From NCBI GenBank assembly GCA_015491905.1, contig WGGC01000191.1:1-32526 (forward strand): a stretch of DNA of 32,526 nt, given 5' to 3'. The DNA is from Bacteroidales bacterium (GTDB lineage Bacteria > Bacteroidota > Bacteroidia > Bacteroidales > F082). Both the position numbers and the translations under genes were made by a program. Each line of letters begins with the position of its first letter. Within the stretch, counting starts at the first letter, position 1. Below the pieces are notes generated by a model. That model made no database searches and was not told the DNA's origin. It worked only from the letters and a program-made list of their open reading frames with translations. Positions 13,562-31,070 of the stretch are shown here, piece by piece.

Positions 13562-14629
13562 ATGATGACCAAGGATTTTAATGTTATTGGTGTTATGTCT
13601 GGAAGTTCACTGGATGGGATTGATATAGCCTTTTGCCGGTTTTACGAAAAAAATAATTCATGGGGATATTCAATTGAGTTAGCTGATACTATAAATTATT
13701 CTGATGAATGGAAAACCTTTTTGATTGATACTTCTAATGTTTCTATAGAGGAGTTTCTATCAAGAAATATAAAATACGGAAAATTTTTGGGAGATGTAAT
13801 TAATGGTTTTATCAAAAAATACAATATTAAAGTTGATTTAATAGGCTTACATGGTCATACTATTTTTCATAACCCGGAGAAAGGGTTTTCAGTACAGTTG
13901 GGATCAGGACAGGCTGTTGCGGTTGCAACAGGGATTCCTACTGTAAGTGATTTCAGAACAAAAGATATTTTACTTGGCGGACAAGGTGCACCGCTGGTTC
14001 CCATTGGTGATGCTTTACTTTTTTCTGAATATGATTATTGTGTAAATATAGGTGGTATTGCTAATGTTTCGTTCGAGGAAGGTAATTCTAGAAAGGCTTT
14101 TGATATTTGCCCTGCTAATCAGTTACTAAATTATTTAAGTCTGAAAAAGAACTTTCCTTATGATAAAGGAGGAAATTTATCCCGCAAAGGAAAATTTAAT
14201 GATACACTTTTTAAAATACTTAATAATGATAAGTATTATAAATTACCAATTCCTAAATCGTTAAGCAATGAGTATGTAAAAGAAACTTTTATACCAATAC
14301 TGGATAAATTTGACATACCAGTGGAAGATAAACTAAATACCGTAGTAAAGCATATTGCTTACCAGATTGGAAATAGTATAACTTCAAAATCAAATGGTAA
14401 AAATATTCTTATTACCGGAGGAGGAGCGCATAATAGCTATTTGATAGAGTCTGTTAGAGAAATGACAAAACTTGAAGTGATAATCCCTGAAAAACAAATA
14501 GCAGACTTTAAAGAAGCACTGATTTTTGCTTTTATGGGGCTATTGAGAAAGCTGGATAAGAAAAATTGTTTGGCAGCAGCTACGGGTGCTGAAAAAAATA
14601 GTTCTACCGGAAATATTTTTTATCCCTGA
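13562..14629 (+). CDS. anmK: Anhydro-N-acetylmuramic acid kinase
   Basis: A 355-residue cytosolic sugar kinase of the ASKHA fold. It hydrolyses and phosphorylates 1,6-anhydro-MurNAc, released from peptidoglycan by lytic transglycosylases, to MurNAc-6-phosphate. Visible motifs: GVMSGSSLDGID (10-21), GLHGHTIFHNP (95-105), LGGQGAPLVPIGD (138-150) and NIGGIANVS (162-170). The usual DTGPGN segment reads DICPAN, as I recall for Bacteroidota enzymes. Two ATGs are adjacent (13562 and 13565) and either could be used. It converges with and overlaps by 10 nt the ACT-domain gene. It links the region to peptidoglycan recycling, although the usual partners murQ and a permease are not adjacent. Confidence 0.95.
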   Translation: MMTKDFNVIGVMSGSSLDGIDIAFCRFYEKNNSWGYSIELADTINYSDEWKTFLIDTSNVSIEEFLSRNIKYGKFLGDVINGFIKKYNIKVDLIGLHGHTIFHNPEKGFSVQLGSGQAVAVATGIPTVSDFRTKDILLGGQGAPLVPIGDALLFSEYDYCVNIGGIANVSFEEGNSRKAFDICPANQLLNYLSLKKNFPYDKGGNLSRKGKFNDTLFKILNNDKYYKLPIPKSLSNEYVKETFIPILDKFDIPVEDKLNTVVKHIAYQIGNSITSKSNGKNILITGGGAHNSYLIESVREMTKLEVIIPEKQIADFKEALIFAFMGLLRKLDKKNCLAAATGAEKNSSTGNIFYP

Positions 14630-15660: not shown

Positions 15661-18057
15661 ATGATGCGGCTTATACTTTATAATATTACATTGGTCTTTT
15701 TCGTATTAATATCATTAAATCTGGTTGCGCAGAGGAATGACCCTTACATTGGGGCTAATATGCAACAGCTAATGGAATTTGGCCCTAAAGTTAAATTACC
15801 CAGTAGGTTTAATGTAAACGGAAAGGGTATTATTCCTCTTCATATAAGCAAATCAAAGGCTTTATCTAAGATTGTTTTTGGCTTTATGCCTGATTGGGAG
15901 TATGATAAAGGTGCCAATTATAATATGCATTACGATTTGCTCACACATGTTGCTGTATTTAATTTTTTGGCATCTTCCAATGGCTCATTGAGTTATCCAT
16001 CTTCATGGCCATGGACGGATGTAATAAATGCAGCACATGCTAAAGGTACCAAAGTCATAATGGCGGTAACTAATTTTGGTGGTAGTGAAAAAGCTGCTGA
16101 TGTTGCTCATTTATTAGTTACCAACACTAACGCTAAAAATATTTTATTTCAAAACATTAAAAAAGTTATTACCACCTTTAAATTAGATGGGGTAAATATT
16201 GATTTTGAAGCAATACATAGTGCTGACCGTGGTAGTTTACTGAATAATTTTATGAATGATTTAAAAGATTTTATTCATACAGAATTACCGGGAAAAGAAG
16301 TTTCTTTTGATGGTCCTGCTGTTAACTGGGGAGGTTGGGATATTCCGGGCTTAGTGCGTAATATTGATTATATATTTATTATGACTTATGATTATTCGGG
16401 CAGTTGGAGTGACTACACCGGTGCTGTATCTCCTTTAACAGATGCTAATGGTGGTTATTGTGTGCAAAAAACTATTCTGTCAACCTATGGAATTCCATTG
16501 GCAAACAGTCCTCAAAAATTAATTATGGGAGTCCCTTATTATGGTAAACAATGGAAAACTGTTTCTGGAAGTGCAGGCTCTGCAATAACATCGTTTGTGA
16601 AATCGACATTTTATAAAAATGCAGTTGTAGATGCTGCTAATCATGGTGGATTTATTTGGGATAACAATTCAAATACTCCATGGTATAAATGGGAATCGGG
16701 AGGATGGAATCAGGTGTGGAATGACAATGATAGCAGTTTACTGTTAAAATACGATTTTGCGTTGACCCAGAATATTGGAGGGGTTGGTATATGGGCATTA
16801 AATTATGATGGTACCAGAACTGAACTATGGAATTTGATTAATTCGGAATTTGCCGGAAATAATACTCCTTTACCTTCTATGCCGCAATCTCCGGCAGTTA
16901 TAATTAAAGATTCTGTTTCAGTAATTGTAAAATTCAGGTCGGGCAATTTTGCAACCAACTATAGAATATTTCAAAGTATGGATAATCTAAAATATTCTCT
17001 TATTAAAGAAGTAAAAGATACAATTGCTGAAATTTCAGGTCTTCAAACCGATTCTGTTTATTATTTTAAAATTGCTTCGGTAAATTCTGCAGGTGAATCT
17101 AATAAAACGCATATAATGGGGGCGGTTCCTTCTAATAAAAATAACGAATTTTTAATTGTAGATGGTGTAGAACGTAGAACCTTCGAGGCAATAACTCAAT
17201 ATAAATATCCTATGTCCCGGCTAAAACATGCTTTTTCATCGGCATCCAATAACGCGGTTATAAATGGATTGGTAAATCTTGAAAATTTTAAATTTATTAT
17301 TTGGATGTTACTCGATGAAAGTACTAATGATGATACTTTTAATAAACTTGAGCAAGCTAAAATTAAAGAGTTTATAGATAATAACAAGGGTGTTTTTATT
17401 GTTTCGGGATCAGAAGTGGGCTGGGATTTAGTAGAAAAAGGTGACACCCAGGATAAATTATTTTTTGAGAAATATTTTCATGCACAGTATATTAGTGATG
17501 CTCCGGGAGCCGCTAATACATATTATACTGTTGAAGATAATAATAAGGTAATATATCATTTAGATGATGGAACTCACGGTACAACCAAAATTGGTTACCC
17601 TGATTTAATTAAACCATTAAACGGATCGGTAGAAACATTTATTTATCCTGATATCAATGTCACAAATGGAGTTGCAGGAGTTCACTATAATAAAACAACT
17701 TCAAGTGGGGTTGATTATCTTGCCTTCCCAATTGAAGCAGTGTATTCAGGCCGGGAGAGGAAAGAGTTACTGGAATACATATTTAGTCAGTATGAAAGCA
17801 TACTTGATGTTAAGAAAAACATGTTAAAAAACTCAATTCATATTTTCCCAAACCCTACTTATAATGTGGTTAAAATAGAAAATTCCGGAAACATAAAGAT
17901 TCATAAAATTGAATTATATGATATATATGGTAATAAACTTATAACTTCCTATCGTGATTTAAAAATTAATATGATGGGTTATCCCAAAGGATTATATATT
18001 TTAAGAATTACAACAGAAAAAGGAGAGCGTGCCGTTTATAAACTAATAAAGAAATAA
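15661..18057 (+). CDS. Secreted GH18 glycosidase with T9SS sorting tail
   Basis: A 798-residue multidomain secreted protein. A signal peptide (1-23, ending near LVAQ) is followed by a GH18 catalytic domain (about 68-400). The DGxxxDxE motif is intact (D176, D181, catalytic acid E183 in DGVNIDFE), and MTYDYSGSW (241-249) supplies substrate residues. Next come an Fn3-like domain (about 410-485) and a Rossmann-like domain starting FLIVDGVER (from 497) that resembles the class-I-glutamine-amidotransferase-like fold found beside some Bacteroidota wall- and polysaccharide-active enzymes. The tail (about 724-798) has IFPNPTYN, YDIYGNKL and GLYILRI, a type A T9SS sorting domain. GH18 enzymes cleave GlcNAc-containing glycans (chitin, or as endo-N-acetylglucosaminidases peptidoglycan or N-glycans); which applies here is unknown. 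Start is the first of two adjacent ATGs. Confidence 0.9.
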   Translation: MMRLILYNITLVFFVLISLNLVAQRNDPYIGANMQQLMEFGPKVKLPSRFNVNGKGIIPLHISKSKALSKIVFGFMPDWEYDKGANYNMHYDLLTHVAVFNFLASSNGSLSYPSSWPWTDVINAAHAKGTKVIMAVTNFGGSEKAADVAHLLVTNTNAKNILFQNIKKVITTFKLDGVNIDFEAIHSADRGSLLNNFMNDLKDFIHTELPGKEVSFDGPAVNWGGWDIPGLVRNIDYIFIMTYDYSGSWSDYTGAVSPLTDANGGYCVQKTILSTYGIPLANSPQKLIMGVPYYGKQWKTVSGSAGSAITSFVKSTFYKNAVVDAANHGGFIWDNNSNTPWYKWESGGWNQVWNDNDSSLLLKYDFALTQNIGGVGIWALNYDGTRTELWNLINSEFAGNNTPLPSMPQSPAVIIKDSVSVIVKFRSGNFATNYRIFQSMDNLKYSLIKEVKDTIAEISGLQTDSVYYFKIASVNSAGESNKTHIMGAVPSNKNNEFLIVDGVERRTFEAITQYKYPMSRLKHAFSSASNNAVINGLVNLENFKFIIWMLLDESTNDDTFNKLEQAKIKEFIDNNKGVFIVSGSEVGWDLVEKGDTQDKLFFEKYFHAQYISDAPGAANTYYTVEDNNKVIYHLDDGTHGTTKIGYPDLIKPLNGSVETFIYPDINVTNGVAGVHYNKTTSSGVDYLAFPIEAVYSGRERKELLEYIFSQYESILDVKKNMLKNSIHIFPNPTYNVVKIENSGNIKIHKIELYDIYGNKLITSYRDLKINMMGYPKGLYILRITTEKGERAVYKLIKK

Positions 18058-18072
18058 AAGTTTAGAGGGAAA

Positions 18073-18969
18073 TTATTTTATTTTATGGTATTTTCTTAAA
18101 GTATTTAAATATTTAATTTGTTTTTTGCGGCTGTGTAATTCACTTTTTTTATTTCCTTTTATTCCTGCTTCAACCTCAATATTTCTATAAGCAATTCCGT
18201 GTTTGGCAGCATATACAGAGAAACTGCCATCTCCACGTTCACCTTTAGGTACATATTCATATACAACATTGAAACCTGATTTTTTATAAAAGTTAATTTC
18301 TTTGGCTACTTTTTTATTGGGTTTAATGGTTAGTCCCGGTATCCATATTAAACTTCTTATATCAGGGTCTTTTTCAGATTCAATTGTGATATTTTTCCAG
18401 GTTTTGATATGATTAAGATCAAAATTGCCACCGGGCTTATTATTATGTAAAACAATAATTAATCGATTTGGAGAATTACCTGATAGTTCTATTAACTCTT
18501 TTGCTACCGGCCAGTATAAATTTTCTTTGTAAAACATTCTGTTGGGATCCTGTTTGGTTAATCCTCTTGGATTGCCATAAGAATACAAATTCCGGTTTTC
18601 ATTATTTTCCAAAACAATCAAAATTCCCCCATGTTTAATAGCCCTTAACCCGGCGTCAAAAGCAGCATCTTCCGAGTCGTGCACAACAAAATATTTTTGC
18701 TTGTTTGGACCTTTCTTTGTAAAAATATTGATTACAAATATTTTATTGCCAACATTTATTTTTTTCTGATGATTAATAATATGATGCCTTTTAATAAATC
18801 TTGCATTATTCCGTGTTGCGGATACAATATCAGCATCTATTATATTTTGGCTTTCAGCCATTAGGGAGACTGTAAATAGTAAATTAAACAATAAAATAAT
18901 AGTCAAAAGTATTTGTATACTTTTTATTGATAAAAAATGATTTCTTTTAACAACTGATAAATGTGCCAT
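18073..18969 (-). CDS. Putative exported M14-like zinc peptidase/amidase
   Basis: A 298-residue protein with an N-terminal hydrophobic segment (about 19-37, likely signal ending VSLMA). I do not recognise a named family. The motifs fit the M14 carboxypeptidase / AstE-like fold: HxxE in VVHDSED (H97, E100), DPNRMF (141-146) resembling the D-x-NR-x-F of AstE and some M14 enzymes, a third possible metal ligand H175 in IVLHNN and a late acidic pair in NIEVEAG (E265/E267) where the catalytic Glu belongs. Some M14 enzymes cut peptidoglycan peptides (MpaA, Csd4), which would suit the neighbourhood, but the substrate is unproven. The C-terminus is strongly basic. It converges with the GH18 gene (15-nt gap). 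Confidence 0.6.
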   Translation of the reverse strand: MAHLSVVKRNHFLSIKSIQILLTIILLFNLLFTVSLMAESQNIIDADIVSATRNNARFIKRHHIINHQKKINVGNKIFVINIFTKKGPNKQKYFVVHDSEDAAFDAGLRAIKHGGILIVLENNENRNLYSYGNPRGLTKQDPNRMFYKENLYWPVAKELIELSGNSPNRLIIVLHNNKPGGNFDLNHIKTWKNITIESEKDPDIRSLIWIPGLTIKPNKKVAKEINFYKKSGFNVVYEYVPKGERGDGSFSVYAAKHGIAYRNIEVEAGIKGNKKSELHSRKKQIKYLNTLRKYHKIK

Positions 18970-19120
18970 TTTTTTGTTTTTTTATTAATATTATACTTCA
19001 ATATACGTATTATTATTTCTAATAAGAATTTTGTATAGTTACTGTTAATTAAGCTTTTAATTATAAAATTATAGCTAATTACGTCATAAAAATAGTGTAG
19101 AAAAGGCTTCTTTTTAACTT

Positions 19121-19138
19121 ATGTTAAGATTTTAACAT
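19121..19138. promoter_or_regulatory. Palindrome upstream of lysA
   Basis: ATGTTAA and TTAACAT flank GATT, a 7-bp dyad that could bind a regulator. It lies in a 280-base AT-rich gap with no gene. Confidence 0.25.
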
Positions 19139-19207
19139 TTTGTGTATAAAATGTAAAAAATAATTATAAATTTTTATTAATTGGAATAACTAGGTTAAAT
19201 TTATCCC

Positions 19208-19223
19208 AACAATTTAAATTGTT
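19208..19223. promoter_or_regulatory. Perfect 16-bp palindrome before lysA start
   Basis: AACAATTTAAATTGTT is self-complementary and ends 26 nt before the TTG start of lysA. Possibly an operator; about one such palindrome is expected by chance in a window of this composition. Confidence 0.25.
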
Positions 19224-19249
19224 TTCAAATAATTTTAAATATTTAGCTT

Positions 19250-20455
19250 TTGTTTACTAAAGAATTATATCAATATTTTATAAAAAAAGAAACTCCGTTT
19301 TATTACTATGATATGGAGTTATTGAGAGAAAGCCTGGAAAAATTAAAACAAGCTTCAGGGAAATATAATTATGAAGTACATTATGCAATTAAAGCTAATG
19401 CCAATGATTATATTCTGGAAATGATAAAAAATTTTGGTTTTGGTGCAGACTGTGTTAGCGGCAACGAAGTAAAGAAAGCCGTTGAAACCGGAATTAGTCC
19501 CGAAAAAATTGTTTTCTCAGGAGTAGGGAAGAGTGATAATGAAATTCTATACGCCATAGACAAGTCTATATTTAGTTTTAACAGCGAATCTATAGAAGAA
19601 ATAGAAGTTATTAATGAATGGGGCAATAAAAAGCATAAGATTGTCCCGGTTTCTTTGCGGTTAAATCCTGATATTGATGCCATAACTCATAAATATCTCA
19701 CTACCGGGTTGCCTGAAAATAAGTTTGGAATTCCTTTACAGTTTTTAGATAATGTTATTCAGAATGTTCAGCAGATGGAAAATATTAAACTTGTAGGAAT
19801 TCATTTTCATATAGGATCGCAAATAAGGGAACTGTCACCATATATTGAACTATGTGAAAAAGTTAACTCGATTCAAGACGTATTATTCGAAAAATATAAA
19901 ATCATTCCGGATCATATTAATTTAGGAGGTGGGTTAGGCATTAATTATGAAGACCCTGATTCGGAATTAATTCCTGACTTTAATAACTTTTTTGGAACAA
20001 TTCATCAACATCTTAAATTGAGAAAAAATCAGAAAATTCATTTTGAGTTAGGGAGAAGCGTTGTCGGTCAGGTAGGTAGTTTAATTTCCAGGGTGTTGTA
20101 TATTAAAAAGGGGTTAAATAAGAATTTTATGATTCTTGATGCAGGTATGACAGATTTAATCAGGCCGGCATTATATGGGGCACAACATAAAATTCAGAAT
20201 ATCTCAAAACCGGAAGCACAAATAATAAATTATAAATATGATGTTGTAGGTCCGGTTTGTGAATCATCTGATAGTTTTGATGATAATGTGATGCTTCCGA
20301 TGACGAGCCGGGGAGATTTAGTAGCAATTAGAAGTACAGGTGCCTATGGTGAAATAATGGTTTCTCAATATACATTAAGGGATAAACCGGGAACTTTATA
20401 TTCTGATAAAATTAAATTTGATAAAAGCATTCCTAAAAAGAGCAATTTAAAGTAA
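19250..20455 (+). CDS. lysA: Diaminopimelate decarboxylase
   Basis: A 401-residue PLP enzyme of alanine-racemase fold type III that converts meso-diaminopimelate to L-lysine. PLP lysine K48 lies in HYAIKANAN; GVGKSDNEI, HFHIGSQI, GGGLGINYEDP, ELGRSVVGQ, VCESSD and GAYGEIMVSQY are the other family signatures. The start is TTG: an in-frame TAG lies two codons upstream (19244-19246) and the N-terminus (MFTKELYQYF...TPFYYYD) matches family starts. Length is normal. The gene appears single; the downstream epimerase lies 157 nt on. It could also use DAP released by murein-peptide breakdown, which is inference. Confidence 0.94.
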   Translation: MFTKELYQYFIKKETPFYYYDMELLRESLEKLKQASGKYNYEVHYAIKANANDYILEMIKNFGFGADCVSGNEVKKAVETGISPEKIVFSGVGKSDNEILYAIDKSIFSFNSESIEEIEVINEWGNKKHKIVPVSLRLNPDIDAITHKYLTTGLPENKFGIPLQFLDNVIQNVQQMENIKLVGIHFHIGSQIRELSPYIELCEKVNSIQDVLFEKYKIIPDHINLGGGLGINYEDPDSELIPDFNNFFGTIHQHLKLRKNQKIHFELGRSVVGQVGSLISRVLYIKKGLNKNFMILDAGMTDLIRPALYGAQHKIQNISKPEAQIINYKYDVVGPVCESSDSFDDNVMLPMTSRGDLVAIRSTGAYGEIMVSQYTLRDKPGTLYSDKIKFDKSIPKKSNLK

Positions 20456-20465
20456 TATAGATGTA

Positions 20466-20585
20466 ATGAACATTTTTAAGCAAATAAAAAACCTGGTAAT
20501 ATTTCTTATTATGATAATTGCATTTTCATTCTCCGGAACCAATAAACATTTATTGGTTTCGGAGATTACCAGTAATATCGATTAA
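20466..20585 (+). CDS. Possible 39-residue membrane peptide
   Basis: A frame starting MNIFKQIKN followed by a hydrophobic stretch (LVIFLIMIIAFSF) resembling a signal or single membrane helix. Its second half is encoded by the hairpin at 20531-20564, which argues that it may be a chance frame over a terminator-like element. Confidence 0.2.
   Translation: MNIFKQIKNLVIFLIMIIAFSFSGTNKHLLVSEITSNID
20531..20564 (+). terminator. Strong hairpin after lysA
   Basis: CTCCGGAACCAATAAA (20531-20546) pairs with 20549-20564 over about 15 bp with one G-U pair. No T-run follows, so it may be a factor-dependent terminator or 3'-end stabiliser for lysA. Confidence 0.5.
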
Positions 20586-20612
20586 TCAATAAAAAAATAA
20601 ATTTAAAATAAT

Positions 20613-21752
20613 ATGCCTTTAAACCGAAGAGATTTTGCTAAAACAATTGGAATTGCTTCTTTGGGAGCAATAGTTCCAAATTTAACCTTTGGTTCAGCAC
20701 CGTCTTACATAAAAAATAATAGTAAAAAAATGAAACTTTCATTCCAACCTTATGAACTTGAGATGAAACATACTTTTACTGTAGCCGAATATTCACGTAA
20801 TTCGACCCCGGATGTGCTTACAAAGATAGAGTATGAGGGATTCACAGGTTATGGAGAAGCCTCGATGCCTCCGTATCTTGGTGAATCGATAGAGAGTGTT
20901 ACAAAGTTTCTTAAAAAAGTAAATCTCCAGCAGTTTTCTGATCCGTTCGAGGTAAATGATATTTTATCTTATATAGATTCTATTGAAGAAGGAAATCCGG
21001 CTGCCAAGGCCTCGGTGGATATTGCATTGCATGATTTGTTGGGGAAATTGGTGAATCAGCCTTTATATAAACTCTGGGGTTTAAATCCTGATAAAACACC
21101 ATATACTTCTTTTACTATTGGTATTGATAAACCGGATGTTGTTTTGATGAAAACAAAAGAAGCCAAAGCAATGGGATTTAAAGTTCTTAAAGTTAAACTG
21201 GGTCGCGGAAATGATCAGGAGATGATAAATACGGTAAGAGAAATTACCAATGTTCCATTATATGTTGATGTTAACCAAGGCTGGACTGATAGAAACAAAG
21301 CTTTGGATATGATATACTGGTTAAAGGAAAAAGGAGTTGTTTTCGTGGAACAACCTATGCCTAAAACACAAGTTGACGATATGGCCTGGCTTACCGAACA
21401 TAGTCCTTTACCTACAATGGCCGATGAGGCTTTTCAACGTTTATATGATATTGAAGATAAAATTAAAGGAGTTTATTCCGGAATAAACATAAAATTAATG
21501 AAATGTACAGGACTTTATGAAGCGCATAAAATGATTACCGTTGCCAGAGCTTCCAATTTAAAGGTTATGTTGGGCTGTATGACGGAAACCTCCTGCGGTG
21601 TTTCTGCTGCTGCACAATTATCACCTTTGGTTGACTGGGGTGACCTTGATGGTAATTTATTGATAAAAAATGATCCCTTCGTGGGAATGAAAGTCATTAA
21701 AGGAAAAGTTACCCTCAATGACTGGCCGGGAATAGGAGTACGGAAATTATAA
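20613..21752 (+). CDS. Tat-exported dipeptide epimerase (enolase superfamily)
   Basis: A 379-residue enzyme of the L-Ala-D/L-Glu epimerase family (muconate-lactonising subgroup). Catalytic residues are all visible: K193-V-K195 (KxK), metal ligands D219 (DVNQGW), E246 (VEQP) and D271 (ADEA), and the opposite base K294 (INIKLMK). The substrate loop TETSCG follows. Residues 1-30 form a Tat signal (NRRDFAK, then a mild hydrophobic stretch to FGSA), unlike the cytosolic Bacillus YkfB and E. coli YcjG. Known: the family converts L-Ala-D-Glu from murein to L-Ala-L-Glu, but members vary in dipeptide specificity. SusC follows after 102 nt. Inference: periplasmic processing of imported murein peptides. 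Confidence 0.9.
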   Translation: MPLNRRDFAKTIGIASLGAIVPNLTFGSAPSYIKNNSKKMKLSFQPYELEMKHTFTVAEYSRNSTPDVLTKIEYEGFTGYGEASMPPYLGESIESVTKFLKKVNLQQFSDPFEVNDILSYIDSIEEGNPAAKASVDIALHDLLGKLVNQPLYKLWGLNPDKTPYTSFTIGIDKPDVVLMKTKEAKAMGFKVLKVKLGRGNDQEMINTVREITNVPLYVDVNQGWTDRNKALDMIYWLKEKGVVFVEQPMPKTQVDDMAWLTEHSPLPTMADEAFQRLYDIEDKIKGVYSGINIKLMKCTGLYEAHKMITVARASNLKVMLGCMTETSCGVSAAAQLSPLVDWGDLDGNLLIKNDPFVGMKVIKGKVTLNDWPGIGVRKL

Positions 21753-21854
21753 TAATGTATGTCGTTTATAATGAATTAATTTATAGGAGTTATAATTAAT
21801 AAAATATTTAAATTGCAATCTTTCTTTTTTCGTTTTAATTAAAATTTTAAGCTT

Positions 21855-24800
21855 ATGAAAAAAAATTACAAATTTTTGTTCTTTTTAATGCTGATTTTTT
21901 CTACCATTCAATTCTCCTTTGCACAGAGCTTTATGGTTACAGGTACAGTAAAGGACGCTAATGGTGCCGAATTGCCTGGTGTTAATATTCACATTAAAGG
22001 AACAACACAAGGAACTACTACAAATCTTCATGGGAAGTACAAAATTCAAGCTTCAAAGGGTGATATATTAGTATTTTCTTTTGTTGGATATGATACAAAG
22101 CAGGTTCCGGTTACGGGACATGTTTTAAATGTTGTCCTTAAAGAAAGTGTAAGCAAACTCAAAGAGTTTGTAGTTACTGCTTTTGGAATGAAACAAAAAA
22201 CACGGTCATTGGGCTATTCTGTTACCCAGGTTCAGGCTAAAAATCTTGATTTGGGTAGTCAGACTAATCCGTTGGAGGCTTTGGAAGGCCGTGTTGCCGG
22301 ACTCCAAATTAACAGAACTTCCGGGTCTGCCGGAGGAGGTGTTGATATACTTATCAGGGGACTTTCTTCAATAGATCCTAGCCGTAATAATCAGCCACTG
22401 ATTATTGTAGATGGACTTGCTATTGATAATGAAACCTATGCAGGTAATGTACTACCCAGTAAAGGATCAAATGCAACCGGAAGTTCCGAGCAATTTGGTT
22501 TTTCTAACCGGGCCAGTGATATTAATCCTGATGATATTGCCAGTTTTAGTGTTTTAAAAGGTGCTGCTGCTACTGCATTATATGGTGTACGTGCAGCAAA
22601 TGGTGCTATAATTATAACAACTAAAAAGGGACAACGGGGCAAACCGAAAATTAATTTATCTGTTTTTACCACTTTTAGAGATGTTGTAAAAACACCTGCA
22701 TTACAAAAAGTTTACAGGGAAGGAAACCGTACAACGAAAATTCCCGGTGCTGTAATAGATCCTAATTCTCCAACAGGATATGATAGATATGGTTTTGCAT
22801 TTTACTCCTGGGGTGTGCCTTTTTCAGCAAATTCCTTTACTATGCCTGATGGAACTGTTATTGATCTAACTCACGATGGTTTTCACAGTCCTTATGAATT
22901 ATTCAGAACAGGAGTCAATAAACAGATAAACTTTAATGTTAGCGGTGCTGATTCTAAATTTAATTACTTTATTTCAACCGGTTGGAATAAAGATGATGGA
23001 ATTCTGCCTAATACAAGTTTTGAGAAGAAAACATTTAGAGTTAATGCCGGTTATCAGATTCTTAAAAACCTGAATATTTCTTCAACTGTAACTTATGCAG
23101 GTTCAGGCGGAGCAAGAGCAAATGGCGGTGATAAATCTGTTTTTAGTTCGTTATCTTATTGGTCTTCAACATTCCCGATAAATAACTATTTACTCCCTAA
23201 CGGTATGCAAAATAATTATACAAATGGGGTAATTGATAATCCAAGATATTTTCTTGAAAAAAGTAATTTAAATGATAATTTAGATCGTTGGATTGGAAAT
23301 GTTGTGGTAAAATGGAGCCCTTATCAATGGATGAATGTTTCTTATGCGGCTCAGTTTGATAATTATGCTGAAAAGCGAAATCGTTTTGTTCCACCTGATT
23401 TGGATGTTGGAAGTCAGGTTCACGGTTTTATTGTTGATGAAAATATTAATTTTAAAGGTTTGGAGTCAAATCTTCTTGTAACTTTTTCACATAACTGGAA
23501 CGAGTTTTTTAATTCTTCCCTGACAATAGGAAATCAGGTTTCAGAAACTAAAAGAAATTATTCTTATATTAGAGGTGAAAATTTAAATGTTCCGGGAATT
23601 AATGATTTAAGTAACACTTTAAATATTTTTGCCGGAACAAGTTTGATTCGCTTAAGAAACGTTGGTGTTTTTGGTGAGTTAAAGTTGGGATATAAAAGTA
23701 AATTATACTTGTCGTTAACAGGAAGAAACGACTGGGTATCTACTTTACCGGTTGGAAACAATTCATTTTTCTATCCTTCTATTAGTGCTGCTTACGTTTT
23801 TACTCAGGATATTTTTAAAAACAGTAATATTATTTCTTTTGGAAAATTGAGAATTTCATGGGCCCAGGTTGGAAAAGCTCCAGGCTTTGGTAATGTAGGT
23901 CACTTTTTTATTCCGGATCCTAACTTCCCTTTTAATGGTGTAGGTGGTTATCGTTCAAGTACAGCATTGGGAGATCCAAATATAAAACCAGAACGTGATA
24001 ACAGTTTTGAGATAGGGACTAATTTACAGTTTTTTAAAAATCGTTTACGTTTTGATTATTCTTTCTATAATACAAATGTTACTAATCAGATTTTCAGGGT
24101 AGGAACCGCCTACTCATCCGGTTTGTCAGGTGTTACCAGAAATGCCGGTGATTATCGTACGTGGGGACATGAAATCGTCGTTAGCGGTGATATTATAAAA
24201 AGAAACGGATTTCGTTGGGAAATGTATATGAACTGGTCAAAAAATAAAGGTGTAGTAGTTGCATTGCCTAAAGATCTTAAAGAAATTGTTTTCTTTGGTG
24301 ATAGAATTACCTCAAAAGCTAAAGTTGGTGATGCTTTGGGAACATTATATGGATGGGTATTCCAGACTGTTCCCGGTGGTCAACGTTATGTTAATCCTGA
24401 TGGTAAGTGGGTTATTACAGGCTCTGATAATAAAGGATATTATTATACAGGCACTAACCAAATGGTAAAAGTTGGTAATGCTTTTCCGGATTTTGTTTTG
24501 TCATTAGGCAATAATATATTGTGGAAAAGTCTTTCGGTAAATTTCCTCATTGAATGGAAAAAAGGTGGTAGTGTATATGATAGAGGGTTTAGAAATGCAC
24601 TAAGAAACGGTAATTTACTGGAAACACAATTCCGCGATAAAACACGTATCCTAAGTGGTATGATGGATGATGGCCATGGTGGTTATGTTCCTAATACCAT
24701 TCCTTTAATGATTACTGCCAATAGTTATTACCGGGATTGGAATAACTATAATAATGCATCTGAAGTTTTATTACAGGACGGTTCGTGGATTAAGTTAAGA

Positions 24801-25025
24801 AATATAAGCATAACTTATTCGCTTAAAGGCAGGATGTTAAAAAAAACGCACCTAAATAAGATATCTGTAACTGCAGGAGCCCGAAATATTATTATTTGGA
24901 CTCCTTTTAAAGGTTTTGACCCTGAAGCAAATCAATTTAGTGCCGGTAGTAATATTTATGGATTTACCGGTTTAACTGTTCCTCTGCCACAGGCTTATTA
25001 TTTTGGTATTAATTTTGGATTTTAA
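21855..25025 (+). CDS. SusC/RagA-type TonB-dependent outer-membrane transporter
   Basis: A 1056-residue outer-membrane importer. A signal peptide (1-23, ending SFA) precedes a carboxypeptidase-regulatory-like domain (about 28-95; VTGTVKDANGAELPGVNI, FSFVGYDTKQV). The plug domain carries the SusC signatures LEGRVAGLQI, DILIRGLSS and PLIIVDG, and GAAATALYGVRAANGAIII. The rest is a 22-strand barrel ending in aromatic residues (YYFGINFGF). SusC proteins take up large substrates, glycans or peptides, with a SusD lid; energy comes from TonB-ExbBD. The substrate cannot be read from sequence. Neighbours (dipeptide epimerase before, S66 carboxypeptidase after, no glycoside hydrolase within the unit) suggest peptides rather than a polysaccharide. 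Its stop is 12 nt from the SusD start. Confidence 0.96.
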   Translation: MKKNYKFLFFLMLIFSTIQFSFAQSFMVTGTVKDANGAELPGVNIHIKGTTQGTTTNLHGKYKIQASKGDILVFSFVGYDTKQVPVTGHVLNVVLKESVSKLKEFVVTAFGMKQKTRSLGYSVTQVQAKNLDLGSQTNPLEALEGRVAGLQINRTSGSAGGGVDILIRGLSSIDPSRNNQPLIIVDGLAIDNETYAGNVLPSKGSNATGSSEQFGFSNRASDINPDDIASFSVLKGAAATALYGVRAANGAIIITTKKGQRGKPKINLSVFTTFRDVVKTPALQKVYREGNRTTKIPGAVIDPNSPTGYDRYGFAFYSWGVPFSANSFTMPDGTVIDLTHDGFHSPYELFRTGVNKQINFNVSGADSKFNYFISTGWNKDDGILPNTSFEKKTFRVNAGYQILKNLNISSTVTYAGSGGARANGGDKSVFSSLSYWSSTFPINNYLLPNGMQNNYTNGVIDNPRYFLEKSNLNDNLDRWIGNVVVKWSPYQWMNVSYAAQFDNYAEKRNRFVPPDLDVGSQVHGFIVDENINFKGLESNLLVTFSHNWNEFFNSSLTIGNQVSETKRNYSYIRGENLNVPGINDLSNTLNIFAGTSLIRLRNVGVFGELKLGYKSKLYLSLTGRNDWVSTLPVGNNSFFYPSISAAYVFTQDIFKNSNIISFGKLRISWAQVGKAPGFGNVGHFFIPDPNFPFNGVGGYRSSTALGDPNIKPERDNSFEIGTNLQFFKNRLRFDYSFYNTNVTNQIFRVGTAYSSGLSGVTRNAGDYRTWGHEIVVSGDIIKRNGFRWEMYMNWSKNKGVVVALPKDLKEIVFFGDRITSKAKVGDALGTLYGWVFQTVPGGQRYVNPDGKWVITGSDNKGYYYTGTNQMVKVGNAFPDFVLSLGNNILWKSLSVNFLIEWKKGGSVYDRGFRNALRNGNLLETQFRDKTRILSGMMDDGHGGYVPNTIPLMITANSYYRDWNNYNNASEVLLQDGSWIKLRNISITYSLKGRMLKKTHLNKISVTAGARNIIIWTPFKGFDPEANQFSAGSNIYGFTGLTVPLPQAYYFGINFGF

Positions 25026-25037
25026 AAGACTAAGAAT

Positions 25038-26525
25038 ATGAAAAATATACTAAAAACACTAATTGTTGTCTTACTAATTGCCTTTATATCAGGCTGTAGT
25101 AAAGACTATTTTAAGGTAAATGTTCCTACCGGAGCTGTAGCTGAAAGTCAGTTAAGTATGAACGATTTACTTGGCCCCGTTCTTTACCACACTGTAATAG
25201 CTCAGTATTATGCTGAAAGAACGTTTGGAAATTATTCTCAGAATTTTACAGGACAGGGAGGAACTTCCGCAGGCGTAACCTCTATATCCGGAACATGGAG
25301 CAACACCTATTTATATGCAATGCCCAATTTGTTGGTTATTAGAGAAAAAGCAAAGGCTTTAAATGCAAAACATTTCGATGCAGTTGCACAAATTTTAATT
25401 GCTATGAATATGGGATTGGTTGCTGACAGCTGGGATAATGTACCATATACTGAGGCAGCCAAAATGGCGAAAAACTTAAATCCTAAGTTTGACACACAAC
25501 AATCGGTTTATAATGCTATTTTTAATTTACTTGATAGTGCAATAGCCGAGCTGGAAGGTGCCGATCCAACAGGGATTTTACCAACATCAACTTCCGACAT
25601 GATTTACCGTGGCGATATGACTAAATGGCTTAAAACAGCATATACTCTTAAGGCTCGCTATCTGTTACATCTTATTAAGAAAAATGGTGCAGTGGCTTCT
25701 GCAACTGCTGCCTTGGCAAGTATAGCAAAAGGGTATACCTCAAATAATGATGATTTTCAGATGTTTTATACCGATAAAATAATTAATCCCTGGTATTCAA
25801 GAGAGGTACTGGCAAAACATACCGGCAACGACCATGATGTAATTTGTGATCAATTGGTTAGTTATATGGATGGCACTTCTTTTCCTTTTACCGGTGGTAC
25901 TGTAACCATAGATCCGCGGTTACCTGTTTATGCTGAAACTGATGATGGAAGTACTGTATATAAAGGATTTGAAAGTGGTGGTTTTGGATTTACAGCCGAT
26001 GGCGTTACAAAAGCAAATACTGTATTTAGAGAAAATGGTTATTATACAAATGCTACATCTCCAATTGTTGTAATTTCCTATGCGGAAGCCTTATTTATCA
26101 AAGCGGAAGCTGAGTTTCTTGTAAATGGTGGAACTACTACCAGTGCTGGCACTACTGCTGCCGGTTATCAGGCATACCTTGATGGTATAAAAGCTAACAT
26201 GTCTAAATTAGGAGTTTCATCTGCTGATTATATTGGTGATCCTTCTGTTGACATGGGTGCTGCTGCTTTAAAATTACAGAATATTATGAAAGAAAAATTT
26301 ATTGCAAATTTCTTAAATCCTGAAACATTTGTGGATTTAAGAAGATATGATTTTTCTCCTGATGTGTTTAAAGATTTTGCTTTACCTGCTGATAACGCAC
26401 AAAGCGTTTTCCCGGGTCAGTGGCTGGTTCGTGCCCAGTATCCCTCTACAGAGGTAAATAGAAATTCAGCAAATGTAAATGCAAATAAAAAATCTCCTGT
26501 TGATCCTGTTTGGTGGGAACAATAG
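25038..26525 (+). CDS. SusD/RagB-type surface lipoprotein
   Basis: A 495-residue substrate-binding lipoprotein partner of the SusC protein upstream. A lipobox ISGC places the lipidated cysteine at C20. Residues after it (SKD) are compatible with Bacteroidota surface export. The C-terminal half holds typical SusD sequence: YAEALFIKAEAEF and, near the end, ALKLQNIMKEKFIANFLNPETFVDLRR (split here: ALKLQNIMKEKF, then NPETFVDLRR) with the usual W near the C-terminus (VDPVWWEQ). The N-terminal half has TPR-like helices. This sequence resembles the SusD/RagB group with the RQQYDLRR-like ending. A strong terminator follows at 26669, so SusC-SusD form one unit and the S66 gene is transcribed separately or by read-through. 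Confidence 0.95.
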   Translation: MKNILKTLIVVLLIAFISGCSKDYFKVNVPTGAVAESQLSMNDLLGPVLYHTVIAQYYAERTFGNYSQNFTGQGGTSAGVTSISGTWSNTYLYAMPNLLVIREKAKALNAKHFDAVAQILIAMNMGLVADSWDNVPYTEAAKMAKNLNPKFDTQQSVYNAIFNLLDSAIAELEGADPTGILPTSTSDMIYRGDMTKWLKTAYTLKARYLLHLIKKNGAVASATAALASIAKGYTSNNDDFQMFYTDKIINPWYSREVLAKHTGNDHDVICDQLVSYMDGTSFPFTGGTVTIDPRLPVYAETDDGSTVYKGFESGGFGFTADGVTKANTVFRENGYYTNATSPIVVISYAEALFIKAEAEFLVNGGTTTSAGTTAAGYQAYLDGIKANMSKLGVSSADYIGDPSVDMGAAALKLQNIMKEKFIANFLNPETFVDLRRYDFSPDVFKDFALPADNAQSVFPGQWLVRAQYPSTEVNRNSANVNANKKSPVDPVWWEQ

Positions 26526-26668
26526 ATAAATGCGTTTTAGTTGTTAATATCTTAAATATATTGATATTCCATAATTGAAGAATTTTAAAATTTCTTTCAT
26601 AATAATTATTCAATCATGGCAGGTTTTATATAACCAATATTTTTTAAAACTATAAAAGGATAAAAGTT

Positions 26669-26713
26669 TGGAGCAAGAAATAGAATTTATAACTTGCTCC
26701 ATTCTTCCTTTTT
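26669..26713 (+). terminator. Terminator after the SusCD genes
   Basis: A 9-bp perfect stem (26669-26677 with 26693-26701; GGAGCAAG/CTTGCTCC core), 15-nt loop, then a T-rich tract TTCTTCCTTTTT. Confidence 0.85.
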
Positions 26714-26755
26714 AAAGTAACTGATTTGTTTTAATGAATACAATAATTCAAAATA

Positions 26756-27817
26756 ATGTTTGACAGAAGGAAATTTTTGAAAAGTATGGCTGCCGTAACT
26801 ACTTTTTCTGTATTGCCCGGCCTTAAATCTTTTTCTCAATCCAGGAGTAATTTTCTGAAAGTAAAACCTAAGCCTCACAGAATTTTACCTGAAAAATTAG
26901 ATCGTGGAATGCGCATAGGACTTGCAACACCCGGAAGCGCTATTACTGATGTCCAACTGAAAGAATCTGTTGCACAACTCGAATGTATGGGTTTTAATAC
27001 ATATTATGAACCTTCTGTTTTAGCGCAATACGGTTATTTTGCCGGTACCGATAGAGAACGTGCTGAGGAACTAATGAGTTTATTTAAGAATAAAGAAGTT
27101 GATGCCATTATGTGTGTACGGGGTGGATATGGTTCCGACCGTATTTTAGATTTGCTGGACTATAATGAAATTAGTAATAATCCTAAAATTTTTATTGGCT
27201 ATAGTGACATAACGGCTTTGTTAATTGCTATTTATGAAAAAACAGGCCTGGTATGTTTTCATGGCCCAATGGGGGTTTCTGATTTTAACGATTTTACATT
27301 ACATTCTTTTGAGAATGTACTTATGAAACCTCATAACAGGTATAAATATCCATATAAAAGAGAAAAGAATACAATTGATAATCCTGAGTTTAATTTTTAT
27401 ACCATTAACAGAGGACAGGCGGAAGGAGAATTAACAGGAGGAAATCTTAGTTTACTGGTTTCTATGATTGGGACAAAATATGAACCTGATTTCGAAAATA
27501 AATTGGTTTTTATTGAGGAAATTGATGAAAAAACATATCGTGTTGACAGGATGTTGACTCAATTAGTAGAAGGAACAAATATAAAAAAGGCAAATGGTAT
27601 TATGCTTGGTATTTTTTATAAATGTAATATTAATGATAAACCTGCTTTGACACTGAGGCAAGCTATTACGGATATTCTGAAGCCTTTGGAAATTCCTGTT
27701 ACCTATGGCTTTCCATTTGGACATATTAAATTAAATATGACTATTCCTGTGGGAGTTAATGCAAAATTTAATGCGGACAAAAAAACTCTTAAATTGACTG
27801 AAAAAGCTGTTGTCTAA
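26756..27817 (+). CDS. Tat-exported L,D-carboxypeptidase (family S66)
   Basis: A 353-residue serine peptidase of family S66 (LdcA / YkfA / microcin C7 self-immunity MccF group). Triad residues: nucleophile S150 in IGYSDIT, Glu at E254/E255 in FIEEIDEKTYRVDR and H323 in FPFGHIK; GGYGSDRILD (123-132) precedes. Known LdcA removes D-Ala from murein tetrapeptides. The N-terminus has DRRKFLKS and a mild hydrophobic stretch, a good Tat signal; classical LdcA is cytosolic. With the Tat-exported epimerase and the SusCD pair it resembles the Bacillus ykfA-ykfB murein-peptide gene set moved to the periplasm. Peptide-antibiotic immunity (MccF-like) is the alternative. Confidence 0.92.
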   Translation: MFDRRKFLKSMAAVTTFSVLPGLKSFSQSRSNFLKVKPKPHRILPEKLDRGMRIGLATPGSAITDVQLKESVAQLECMGFNTYYEPSVLAQYGYFAGTDRERAEELMSLFKNKEVDAIMCVRGGYGSDRILDLLDYNEISNNPKIFIGYSDITALLIAIYEKTGLVCFHGPMGVSDFNDFTLHSFENVLMKPHNRYKYPYKREKNTIDNPEFNFYTINRGQAEGELTGGNLSLLVSMIGTKYEPDFENKLVFIEEIDEKTYRVDRMLTQLVEGTNIKKANGIMLGIFYKCNINDKPALTLRQAITDILKPLEIPVTYGFPFGHIKLNMTIPVGVNAKFNADKKTLKLTEKAVV

Positions 27818-27847
27818 TTTATTAAATTAAATTATGTTTATTTAGTA

Positions 27848-29332
27848 TTACTTTTTCAATTCTGCCAGAGCAATCATTAATTTCTCAAGCTTGGCTTTGG
27901 CTTCCTTTGATTTACAACTAAAATTATTGACCATCATTGAGAAAATAATTTCTCTTCCTGAACGTGAGGTTACATAACCACTATATGCTTTTACTTTATC
28001 AATTGTGCCGCTTTTTGCTCTTAGGTTTCCTTCTGCAGCACTACCTTTAAACATCCCTTCTACAGTACCTTCCCTGCCTGCAATTGGCAGTGAGTTAAAA
28101 TAATGTGTGAAATAACTACTCTTGTTTTTCATATAGTTTAACAGATATACCATTTGCCGGGGGGTTATGGCGTTATATTGTGATAATCCGCTACCGTCAG
28201 TAATATATAAACCTTGTATATCCATTCCTTTTTTTTTCCAAAATTTCATTAAGGCTTTTGCATCTTCGCCGGTTTGTGCTTTTCCTATAAGCTTTAAGCC
28301 GCAATGGTCTAGAAAATGCTCAGCAAATAAATTAATGCTGTGGATATTAGTTTGTTTTATTATTTCTGACAGGGGAGGGGAATAGGTAGTATATATAAGT
28401 TTAGTACTTATGTTTTTTCTTTCTTTCTGCAACATCTTTAATGTGGCAGGCTTTTTTAAAATGACTATTCCATTGTATTGTAGGACACGGTTTAATTCAA
28501 AAGCAGCAAAAAATGCCGGATCGGGGATAGATCCTTTTACTCCATATTCAGTTTTGTTCAGGGGTAATCTTCCTCTTAAATAGCGGGTGTTACAATAGGG
28601 AGCTCCTATTATGTTTGAATGGTCTCCCAAAACTGTATCAGAAATAATTTGGTTATCGAAAACTAAGTAGGGAATCTGTGGTTCAGTTTTAATTATTTTT
28701 GCCGGTTTGTCAGGAATGCTGTCCGTATTAAAAAACACTGTATAATAGTTATCGTAAATGGACAAGCCGCATGGTCCGGCACCAAAATAATCTCCCATAT
28801 TTCCCCATGCCCAGGTTACAGGAACAATATCTCTGCTATAAATTCCTGCATCAGCAATTACACCACCAGAAATAGAGTCTATTCCTAATTTTTTAATTGC
28901 CTCTGCCCACCGGATAAGAAACAGGTGGTCTTTTGTTTGATCAAAATATACTGATCCCAGCGTAGGATCTCCACCTCCTTCAATAATTATGTCCCCCTTT
29001 AAAAATTTATGTAAAGTATCAATGTGTCCTGTATATAATAATTTAGTTTTAAATTGATAATCCGGTCCATACATTTCAAGTACGGATGCTGTGGAGATTA
29101 ATTTCTGATTAGATGCAGGCCTTAATGCCTTATCAGGATTATAAGAGGATATTACTTTACCGGAATTAGCATCAATAGCTAAAAATCCAAACCACGCATT
29201 TTTAAAGTCAGGATCTTTAATGGTTTTTGCTAATACCTTATTTACTATATGATGTCTTTTTGATAATCTCCGTTGTGAATAACCGTTGTATACTAAAATA
29301 ATAAGGAATAGAATAAGTACTAATTTTCGCAT
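27848..29332 (-). CDS. dacB: D-alanyl-D-alanine carboxypeptidase/endopeptidase (PBP4, S13)
   Basis: A 494-residue periplasmic low-molecular-mass penicillin-binding protein of family S13. A signal peptide (1-19, ending YSQ) precedes the three active-site motifs: SxxK S74-N-Q-K77, SxN S332-I-N334 and KSG K440-S-G442 (KTG in many). The large insert between motifs one and two is typical of PBP4. It trims D-Ala and opens D-Ala-DAP cross-links in peptidoglycan, so it would also create substrate for L,D-carboxypeptidases. The gene converges with the S66 gene (30-nt gap). Length is normal. Confidence 0.95.
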   Translation of the reverse strand: MRKLVLILFLIILVYNGYSQRRLSKRHHIVNKVLAKTIKDPDFKNAWFGFLAIDANSGKVISSYNPDKALRPASNQKLISTASVLEMYGPDYQFKTKLLYTGHIDTLHKFLKGDIIIEGGGDPTLGSVYFDQTKDHLFLIRWAEAIKKLGIDSISGGVIADAGIYSRDIVPVTWAWGNMGDYFGAGPCGLSIYDNYYTVFFNTDSIPDKPAKIIKTEPQIPYLVFDNQIISDTVLGDHSNIIGAPYCNTRYLRGRLPLNKTEYGVKGSIPDPAFFAAFELNRVLQYNGIVILKKPATLKMLQKERKNISTKLIYTTYSPPLSEIIKQTNIHSINLFAEHFLDHCGLKLIGKAQTGEDAKALMKFWKKKGMDIQGLYITDGSGLSQYNAITPRQMVYLLNYMKNKSSYFTHYFNSLPIAGREGTVEGMFKGSAAEGNLRAKSGTIDKVKAYSGYVTSRSGREIIFSMMVNNFSCKSKEAKAKLEKLMIALAELKK

Positions 29333-29478
29333 TTTTATAAAATTATTCTTTTGTTGGAAAGATAAAAATTTTATGCATATAAATATATATATTTAGGATG
29401 ATATAAATAGATTTTAACGAAAATATCTGAATATGTTAAATTGTTTTATCAGTATGATCAGTACTTTAGAAAGATTAT

Positions 29479-29588: not shown

Positions 29589-31070
29589 ATGAGTGATTTT
29601 GGAATATTATCAATACTTCCTCCGGTACTTGCCATTATACTTGCATTAAAAACCAAACAAGTTTATATTGCCTTGTTTTTAGGAACTTGGTTGGGATGGT
29701 TAATTATAAATGACTGGAATGTAATTACAGGTACATTTGCTACCATTGAGGCTTTTGTTAATGTTTTTAAATCACCCGGAAATACTCGTACAATAATGTT
29801 TAGTGCGCTTGTGGGGGCATTATTGTTATTTATTCAATATTCGGGTGGTGTAAATGGATTTATGATTAGCATAGGAGATTTCATTACGCGGGTTGAGCAA
29901 AAAAAAAATGTGAAAGGTCGTATGCTTGTCCAGATTCTGGCCATGGTTACGGGAGTATTACTTTTCGTTGAAACAAGTATTAGTTCATTAACTGTAGGAA
30001 CGCTTTATAGACCATTATTTGATAAATTTAAAATTCCTAGAGAAAAGCTTGCATATATTGCAGATTCTTCGTCTGCCCCATCTTCCATTTTAATTCCTTT
30101 TAATGCTTGGGGTGCATTTATTATGGGATTATTACTTACACAGGGTGTTAAAAATCCAATGATAGTTTTAGGGAAGGCTATGATTTTTGATTTTTATCCT
30201 ATTTTAACTATTATTCTGGTTTTTGTTATTATTATATCTAAAAAGGATTTTGGTGCCATGTCTAAAGCTGAAAAGCGAACCAGAGATACCGGTAAACTAT
30301 TGAATGATAATGCACATCCTTTAGTGTCGGATACTATTACATCTTTAGATGCTAAAAATGGTATTAAACCAAGGGCTTTAAATATGTATATTCCTATTTT
30401 AACAATGGTACTTATGATGCCGGTTTATTTATTTTATACAGGTTATACTTCTGTAAAAAATTATGATGGCTGGATTGATTATACAGGACAGGCTATTGGT
30501 TTTGGCTCCGGTTCTTCGGCTGTACTATACTCAGTGCTGACATCAATTTTTGTGGCGATGATACTTTATCGTTCACAAAAAATAATGAAAATGAAAGAAA
30601 TGGTTGAGCTGATATTAAAAGGAATAAGTGAAATGATGCCTTTGGCTTTATTGATGCTATTAGCATTTTCTATTAGCGAAGTGAGTAATAAACTAGGGAC
30701 AGGAGTATATGTTGCCAACAACACAAAAATGTGGTTAACACCCCAGTTGCTTCCATTTATTTTGTTTGTTATAAGTGCATTTATAGCTTTTTCTACAGGA
30801 ACCTCGTGGGGGACTTTTGCTATTATGATGGCAATTACTGTTCCTATGGCCAATGCGCAGGGAGCCAATTTATTTTTGGTTGTGGCGGCTACCATAGGAG
30901 GAGGTGTTTTTGGAGATCATTGTTCTCCAATTTCCGACACTACTATTATTTCCTCAATGGCATCAGCGTGCGACCATATTGACCATGTGAGAACACAACT
31001 TCCTTATGCTTTATTTGTTGGCGCGATATCAGCTGTTTTATATTTAATTCTCGGATATGTTATGCATTAA
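29589..31070 (+). CDS. nhaC: NhaC-family Na+/H+ antiporter
   Basis: A 493-residue inner-membrane protein with about 11-12 spans, of the NhaC family (COG1757). Family signatures: YIADSSSAPSSILIPFNAWGAFIMG in the first half (the stretch IADSSSAPSS and PFNAWGAF), FSTGTSWGTFAIMM and GGGVFGDHCSPISDTTIISS in the second. It starts MSDFGILSILPP. Members exchange Na+ and H+; some relatives exchange organic acids (malate/lactate, MleN) or amino acids, so an amino-acid or organic-acid antiporter role is possible here given the peptide-processing neighbours. Length is normal. It is a single-gene unit, convergent with the DJ-1/PfpI gene. Confidence 0.9.
   Translation: MSDFGILSILPPVLAIILALKTKQVYIALFLGTWLGWLIINDWNVITGTFATIEAFVNVFKSPGNTRTIMFSALVGALLLFIQYSGGVNGFMISIGDFITRVEQKKNVKGRMLVQILAMVTGVLLFVETSISSLTVGTLYRPLFDKFKIPREKLAYIADSSSAPSSILIPFNAWGAFIMGLLLTQGVKNPMIVLGKAMIFDFYPILTIILVFVIIISKKDFGAMSKAEKRTRDTGKLLNDNAHPLVSDTITSLDAKNGIKPRALNMYIPILTMVLMMPVYLFYTGYTSVKNYDGWIDYTGQAIGFGSGSSAVLYSVLTSIFVAMILYRSQKIMKMKEMVELILKGISEMMPLALLMLLAFSISEVSNKLGTGVYVANNTKMWLTPQLLPFILFVISAFIAFSTGTSWGTFAIMMAITVPMANAQGANLFLVVAATIGGGVFGDHCSPISDTTIISSMASACDHIDHVRTQLPYALFVGAISAVLYLILGYVMH

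Follow-up and report, generated by a model that had tools for sequence, protein, structure and literature searches.

Which compounds does a SusC-SusD (SusCD) transporter import when its genes stand between those of a dipeptide epimerase and a family S66 carboxypeptidase? The question is raised by a locus in a 32,526-nucleotide stretch of DNA from a Bacteroidales bacterium of family F082 (contig WGGC01000191.1), called the window here. An earlier reading of this DNA (the original prediction) had placed the genes for the epimerase, SusC, SusD and the S66 protein consecutively on the forward strand at positions 20613-27817, and open reading frames (ORFs) together with Pfam and NCBIfam profiles confirmed that arrangement. 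We consider the best explanation of this SusCD to be that it is an outer-membrane importer of murein (peptidoglycan) peptides, to which we assign a probability of roughly 0.6 from sequence comparisons. The genes, their order, their conservation within the genus and the link between this clade of SusC proteins and epimerase genes were observed directly.

Composition and conservation of the gene cluster

The SusC protein belongs to the RagA/SusC family of TonB-linked proteins, matching both TIGR04056 and TIGR04057 above cut-off, and a gene for a SusD-family lipoprotein lies directly 3' of its gene, as in other SusCD transporters. The lipobox cysteine of SusD, Cys20, was invariant in a six-row alignment, and the matches of this protein in the Protein Data Bank (PDB) included BT_2263, a distant one (45 bits, 4.8e-11). 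The gaps between the genes were 102 bp from epimerase to SusC, 12 bp from SusC to SusD and 230 bp from SusD to S66. Seven terminator-like matches were found in the window, compared to 5.3 expected, with none in these three gaps, and Rfam gave no riboswitch match in the 32,526 nucleotides.

The best PDB matches of the epimerase were 3iji, 3ijl and 3ijq (519 bits), which we take to be the Bacteroides thetaiotaomicron dipeptide epimerase solved with L-Ala-D-Glu. In the alignment with these entries the protein retains their lysines, metal ligands and DxD segment, which presumably have catalytic and metal-binding roles, and it scored below the NCBIfam cut-offs for L-Ala-D/L-Glu epimerase models. 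We predict it to be the dipeptide (L-Ala-D/L-Glu) epimerase of a ykfABC-type pathway. For the S66 protein, the best PDB match was 6uuk, a muramoyltetrapeptide carboxypeptidase (157 bits), followed by MccF (140 bits), and the sole NCBIfam match was again muramoyltetrapeptide carboxypeptidase, below cut-off (185 versus 378 bits). It carries the GGYGS, Glu and His motifs, which we assume to be catalytic. At the level of the family it is the predicted L,D-carboxypeptidase of a ykfABC-type pathway, its matches being divided between the LdcA and MccF types. The N-termini of both enzymes consist of RRxF and then a hydrophobic stretch, resembling a Tat signal, and TatC is encoded in the genome; RR followed by one residue and a hydrophobic residue within the first 45 residues occurred in 79 of the 114 epimerases of at least 340 bits from the fetched loci. 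The genome also contains a second LysA homologue, 51% identical to that of the cluster and interrupted by an internal stop, so the LysA of the cluster may simply be the biosynthetic enzyme.

The original prediction had made its case depend on conservation of the gene order, and the order epimerase-SusC-SusD-S66 was present in six further genomes of the genus: five came from a search for related loci (57 loci, the nearest five being L003-L007), and genome searches added the single-contig genome G143. In these six the full order was LysA-YkfC-epimerase-SusC-SusD-S66, with LysA truncated at the end of the contig in L003 and SusD divided between two frames in L005. LysA thus lay 5' of ykfC or the epimerase in all seven clusters of the genus, one of them cut in this way. 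Across the genus the gaps were 3-45 bp between LysA and YkfC, 1-19 bp between YkfC and epimerase and 2-12 bp between SusC and SusD. Among 12 genomes of the genus, seven carried the SusD orthologue and with it the SusCD unit, with 65-75% identity in the six other than our own, and eight carried the epimerase: both genes were present in seven, both were absent from four, and the epimerase occurred without SusD in one (p 0.01). That one, G151, has its epimerase and S66 genes as direct neighbours with no SusCD, and its ykfC is on another contig.

The 157 bp between LysA and the epimerase hold only a remnant of the gene for a YkfC-type gamma-D-Glu-diaminopimelate endopeptidase: a start codon and about 39 ykfC-like codons, then a stop. 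Local alignment of this remnant to the ykfC starts of three relatives scored 87-97, compared to a maximum of 39-53 for shuffled sequences, and by eye it lacks the lipobox cysteine of the relatives' YkfC, which suggests decay rather than an assembly fault. In all six other clusters of the genus, the gene between lysA and the epimerase encodes a lipoprotein of about 400 aa with SH3 and NlpC/P60 parts, whose PDB matches were 3npf and 3pvq (dipeptidyl-peptidase VI type) and then 3h41 (YkfC of Bacillus cereus). Genome-wide absence of an NlpC/P60 peptidase had been named as a point that would weaken the original prediction, and one is present: contig C111 of the same genome carries another YkfC-type gene, encoding 256 aa with no signal peptide by eye, whose best PDB matches were 3pvq, 3npf and 3h41. 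The Tyr and Asp that mark the YkfC subfamily, according to the available portion of PMC2954226, are aligned in this protein by eye. This signal-less type was found in 11 of the 12 genus genomes, and the lipoprotein type in seven of the 12, our own not among them.

Linkage of SusC clades to murein enzymes

We searched a phylum sample of 395 genomes with SusC alone, with no more than two candidates scored in each genome, and retrieved the 20 best places other than those in our own genome; choosing by SusC alone avoids picking loci by the murein genes under question. The four closest SusC proteins, those of G370, G290 and G275 at 55-56% identity and of G417 at 48%, all came from another family of the same class, and each of their loci had, within three genes, an enolase-superfamily gene (a homologue of the epimerase) and an aminotransferase-like gene. 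No epimerase lay within six genes of SusC at the other 16 places (four of four versus none of 16; Fisher p 0.0002, uncorrected for relatedness). The one epimerase homologue of the four that was tested, that of L177, again had 3iji as its best PDB match (216 bits). Genes for S13 and for an M14 zinc carboxypeptidase are present as well at both L177 and L179. In L190 and L191, which are from another class, YkfC follows directly after SusD and is accompanied by Amidase_2 and beta-lactamase2-family genes. L190 has an S13 gene in addition; L191 has a DAP_DH-like gene and, at a greater distance, a partial S13 gene. Three more loci belong to the same family as these two: L181 and L194, in which S13 occurs with beta-lactamase2 and DAP_DH_C genes, and L182, which has the beta-lactamase2 and DAP_DH_C genes only.

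Overall, eight of the 20 best SusC places had a gene for an epimerase, YkfC, S66, S13 or amidase within six genes. Two sets of loci served as controls. None of the 12 SusD-similar loci of our own family (L097-L108) had a scored murein gene, nor did any of 10 other SusC-like or TonB-dependent-receptor regions of our own genome, some of them on contigs of 4-9 kb. The difference between eight of 20 and none of 22 gave a Fisher p of 0.001, uncorrected for shared descent.

A tree of 61 SusC proteins was then inferred with IQ-TREE in quick mode under LG+G4. The tree and the neighbour tables omit L003-L007 and L009, which are copies of L091-L094, L096 and L173, and the tree excludes SusC ORFs of up to 850 aa, so that L181 is absent, its SusC being split in two. 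The SusC of the window grouped with those of six genus members, then with L177-L179 and then with L180, with a Shimodaira-Hasegawa-like approximate likelihood ratio test (SH-aLRT) value of 100 at each fork, and all 11 SusC genes of this clade (seven from the genus plus L177-L180) have an epimerase within three genes. The SusC proteins of L190, L191 and L194 formed a separate group (SH-aLRT 99), and those of L010 and L029, with YkfC and epimerase nearby, grouped with that of L028 (100), in which YkfC and epimerase lie about 5 kb 5' of SusC. This last group was found by way of its epimerase, so only its grouping is informative and not its gene context. L028, from Segatella baroniae DSM 16972, and L026, from Hoylesella oralis ATCC 33269, have YkfC and epimerase near SusCD, and their SusC proteins belong to clades other than that of the window.

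Taken together, these comparisons tie this SusC clade to genes for predicted murein-peptide enzymes in other families, with a looser tie for other SusC clades, and suggest that the association arose or was retained in more than one clade. It is possible, and we suggest it only tentatively, that some SusCD importers of Bacteroidota form a class dedicated to murein peptides and recruited more than once: in the clade that this genus shares with a second family, together with an epimerase; in the clade of a different class, next to genes for YkfC, amidase, S13 and beta-lactamase-like proteins; and in further SusCDs beside YkfC-epimerase pairs. In such systems endopeptidase, L,D-carboxypeptidase and epimerase would act outside the cytoplasm.

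A further set of loci was collected with the epimerase as query. Of 118 places outside our own genome, the 60 best (at least 366 bits) were fetched, and the 107 epimerase loci of at least 340 bits include the genus member G151 as L009, which has no SusC, and miss L028, in which an antisense ORF masks the epimerase. SusC lay within five genes of the epimerase at 13 of these 107 loci and not at the other 94, a proportion that led us not to regard proximity of SusC to an epimerase as significant in itself. Counted by position, SusC occupied 14 of the 959 gene slots within five genes of the epimerase and none of the 416 slots farther out (p 0.006, uncorrected for relatedness and contig ends).

Two further observations concern other SusCDs. 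L143 and L144 come from a single genus of another family; each has YkfC, epimerase and SusCD side by side and S66 and M14 genes a short way off, but their two SusC proteins stand far apart in the tree. The SusCDs of our family's other genera that are nearest by SusD (29-36% identity) have histidine-ammonia-lyase-like genes nearby, labelled by eye, at 10 of 12 loci (L098 and L100-L108), and are perhaps another amino-acid- or peptide-linked SusCD group.

Proposed function and alternative explanations

From the enzymes encoded here and in the relatives we infer the substrate, the compartments and the direction of flux as follows. SusC and SusD would capture peptidoglycan peptides, or fragments bearing them, in a TonB-driven step at the outer membrane, the peptides coming from other bacteria by scavenging or from the cell's own wall by recapture. 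Within the periplasm, exported S66 would remove the terminal D-Ala; in the relatives, the lipoprotein YkfC would release L-Ala-D-Glu from diaminopimelate; exported epimerase would turn L-Ala-D-Glu into digestible L-Ala-L-Glu; and LysA would turn diaminopimelate into lysine. Candidates for an inner-membrane carrier, both of them guesses, are the NhaC-type protein and a DUF819-type protein encoded between two S66 genes in L096. The original prediction had the SusCD replace the ABC importer of Bacillus. Its outer-membrane location fits and the replacement does not: because the Bacillus importer crosses the cytoplasmic membrane, SusCD would be an added outer-membrane step rather than a substitute.

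The murein-peptide proposal gains from the gene order, the YkfC-type protein and the linkage of SusC to murein enzymes in other families, so that the comparative evidence strengthens an interpretation that stays putative. A number of results weigh on the other side. The ykfC of the cluster has been lost in this genome, leaving an exported epimerase with no exported source of L-Ala-D-Glu, and no inner-membrane importer was identified. The gaps of 79-178 bp between epimerase and SusC and of 103-230 bp between SusD and S66 across the genus are no proof of a single transcript. At 12 of the 20 nearest SusC loci there was no scored murein gene. The SusC clade is rare, with three SusC proteins at 55-56% and one at 48% in the 395 genomes when at most two candidates were scored per genome, and a class sample yielded only G275, G290 and G330 of 395 genomes and none additional. 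A search of the family's 161 genomes outside the genus gave no SusD orthologue (best 34% identity, E 1.2e-48). Family S66 also takes in the MccF immunity type, and the structure model of SusD has a mean predicted local distance difference test (pLDDT) score of 50, mostly below 50 outside the TPR-like helices, too low for a view of the ligand site.

Of the other explanations, the one that survives best, unlikely as we judge it, is that the pair is a general RagAB-like importer of oligopeptides and the murein enzymes are just some of the downstream peptidases. The presence of BT_2263 among the PDB matches of SusD is consistent with this, since the SusCD pairs BT2261-64 and RagAB have oligopeptide ligands according to the available portion of PMC7782687. 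So are the histidine-ammonia-lyase-like genes at 10 of the 12 loci described above, which are an amino-acid context, and other peptides could be substrates of S66 enzymes and epimerases. The neighbours are, however, typical of murein metabolism (epimerase, YkfC, S13 and Amidase_2) across several families, and there is no general peptidase inside the unit, because no further ORF of at least 90 aa lies between lysA and S66 in any of the seven genus clusters.

Glycans are the best-studied cargo of SusCD transporters, and the pair could be a glycan importer beside unrelated murein genes, taking up, for example, the sugars of chitin or murein released by the GH18 protein that is encoded upstream and carries a type IX secretion tail (Table 1). 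The absence of scored murein genes at 12 of the 20 near SusC loci would fit this explanation, which we nevertheless hold to be improbable. No GH18 gene lay 5' of lysA in any of the relatives' five clusters reaching beyond lysA (the contig of the sixth, L094, begins inside lysA), and because of this absence the locus lacks the conserved carbohydrate-active enzymes that would make it a polysaccharide utilisation locus. Pfam detected no other glycoside hydrolase between AnmK and NhaC, and in the phylum sample epimerases stand beside the four SusC loci that come closest outside the genus. That the S66 protein is instead an MccF-like immunity enzyme against a peptide antibiotic, with SusCD as entry route or target of the peptide and the epimerase incidental, is very improbable. 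In its favour, MccF chains were the second-best matches of this protein; against it, the sole NCBIfam match, below cut-off, was muramoyltetrapeptide carboxypeptidase, and epimerase and S66 are adjacent without SusCD in G151.

Known systems and neighbouring genes

The murein-peptide importer proposed here was compared to four known systems. The Bacillus murein-peptide pathway comprises S66, YkfC and epimerase (available portion of PMC2954226), and B. subtilis ykfABC(D), next to dpp, resembles the present cluster in bringing together S66, an L-Ala-D/L-Glu epimerase and, as in the six relatives, a YkfC-type protein with NlpC/P60 and SH3 parts. It differs in that here there is a SusCD pair, ykfC is a remnant in the window, and no dipeptide ABC importer was found among the 12 genes scanned with Pfam (positions 13562-31718; genes farther out and the relatives' flanks were unscanned). 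In addition, YkfB has no predicted signal peptide according to the same portion of PMC2954226, whereas the epimerase here has an RRxF N-terminus and the enzymes have export-type N-termini. That ykfB and ykfC occur as a pair in B. thetaiotaomicron and Gramella was already stated in PMC2954226; the two genes are the same, and the epimerase matches 3iji/3ijl/3ijq best, but the available portion of that paper mentions no SusCD. BT2261-64 and RagAB share with the present pair a SusC and a SusD lid, with oligopeptide ligands and a match of BT_2263 to SusD; that match is distant, and the available portion of PMC7782687 describes no murein enzymes with them. Tannerella forsythia, a member of the Bacteroidota living on foreign peptidoglycan fragments, has an AmpG route for MurNAc-peptides (available portion of PMC7670621), which differs in being an inner-membrane step and in involving sugars, and 'susc' occurs only in the reference list of that paper.

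Glycan cargo of SusCDs is covered in the available portions of a review, PMC11658791, and of PMC7782687. In agreement with the original prediction, which knew of no SusCD described for peptidoglycan peptides with these enzymes, we found none among the top-listed matches of searches of open-licence PubMed Central or in the available portions of PMC2954226, PMC7670621, PMC11382707, PMC11658791, PMC13046382 and PMC7782687. What is new is thus probably a new cargo for SusCD and not a new kind of system. If the proposal is correct, a dedicated outer-membrane importer would mean a further step in the import of cell-wall fragments and would bear on cross-feeding on dead bacteria and on the amount of immunoactive peptide that stays extracellular.

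Table 1. Features of the window from AnmK to the NhaC-type gene, with the evidence for each.
Feature	Position	Strand	Evidence
AnmK, anhydro-N-acetylmuramic acid kinase, murein-sugar recycling	13562..14629	+	PF03702
GH18 protein with type IX secretion tail	15661..18057	+	profile matches
Unannotated exported-looking protein	18073..18969	-	no Pfam match
LysA, diaminopimelate decarboxylase, 401 aa, TTG start	19250..20455	+	TIGR01048 375.6 bits (cut-off 297.9)
ykfC remnant, about 39 initial codons then stop	20456..20612	+	reading frame; local alignment to relatives' ykfC starts
Predicted dipeptide epimerase, enolase superfamily, 379 aa, RRxF-type (Tat-like) N-terminus	20613..21752	+	Pfam MR_MLE N and C
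SusC, TonB-dependent outer-membrane transporter, 1056 aa	21855..25025	+	TIGR04056 624 bits (cut-off 368); TIGR04057 58 bits (above cut-off)
SusD lipoprotein, SusD-like_2 type, 495 aa	25038..26525	+	PF12771 172 bits; lipobox ...ISGC at residue 20
Peptidase S66 (LD-carboxypeptidase type), 353 aa, RRxF-type N-terminus	26756..27817	+	PF02016 and PF17676
PBP4-type D-Ala-D-Ala carboxypeptidase/endopeptidase (S13)	27848..29332	-	TIGR00666 211.7 bits (cut-off 107.8)
NhaC-type antiporter family protein	29589..31070	+	PF03553 171.9 bits

Upstream of the cluster, the AnmK gene lies five genes 5' of the epimerase, and in L093 it also lies ahead of an ACT-type gene. In the window the GH18 gene and the gene at 18073-18969 sit between the ACT-type gene and lysA; the latter gene was not in this position in the five relatives' clusters that reach that far, and homologues were found in only three other genomes of the family's 173 (G146, G150 and G153), with a fusion to an esterase-like part, by eye, in L171. 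We considered whether its product might be an M14-type zinc peptidase acting in place of YkfC and rejected this. There was no Pfam match at E 5 and no PDB match at E 10, hhalign against four M14 proteins gave a probability of 0.1, the structure model had a mean pLDDT of 44, and homologues also occur in genomes retaining ykfC. By eye, HxxE, NR and a late Glu are invariant across three homologues, and the motifs HDSED, DPNRMF, HNN and EVEAG are invariant in three rows.

Downstream, PBP4 (S13) lies 3' of S66 in five of the seven genus clusters, with two further genes intervening in L096, and the NhaC-type gene adjoins PBP4 in five of the seven. In L096, directly after SusD and before PBP4, two S66 genes flank the gene for a membrane protein that we take to be DUF819-like; a DUF819-like gene also occurs in our own genome, in L204. 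Beside an aminotransferase-like gene, 3' of NhaC in L091, L093, L095 and L096 and on contig C70 of our own genome (L175:1770-2879), there is a gene for another enolase-superfamily enzyme with about 33% identity to the first, and a similar pair adjoins SusCD in L177-L180.

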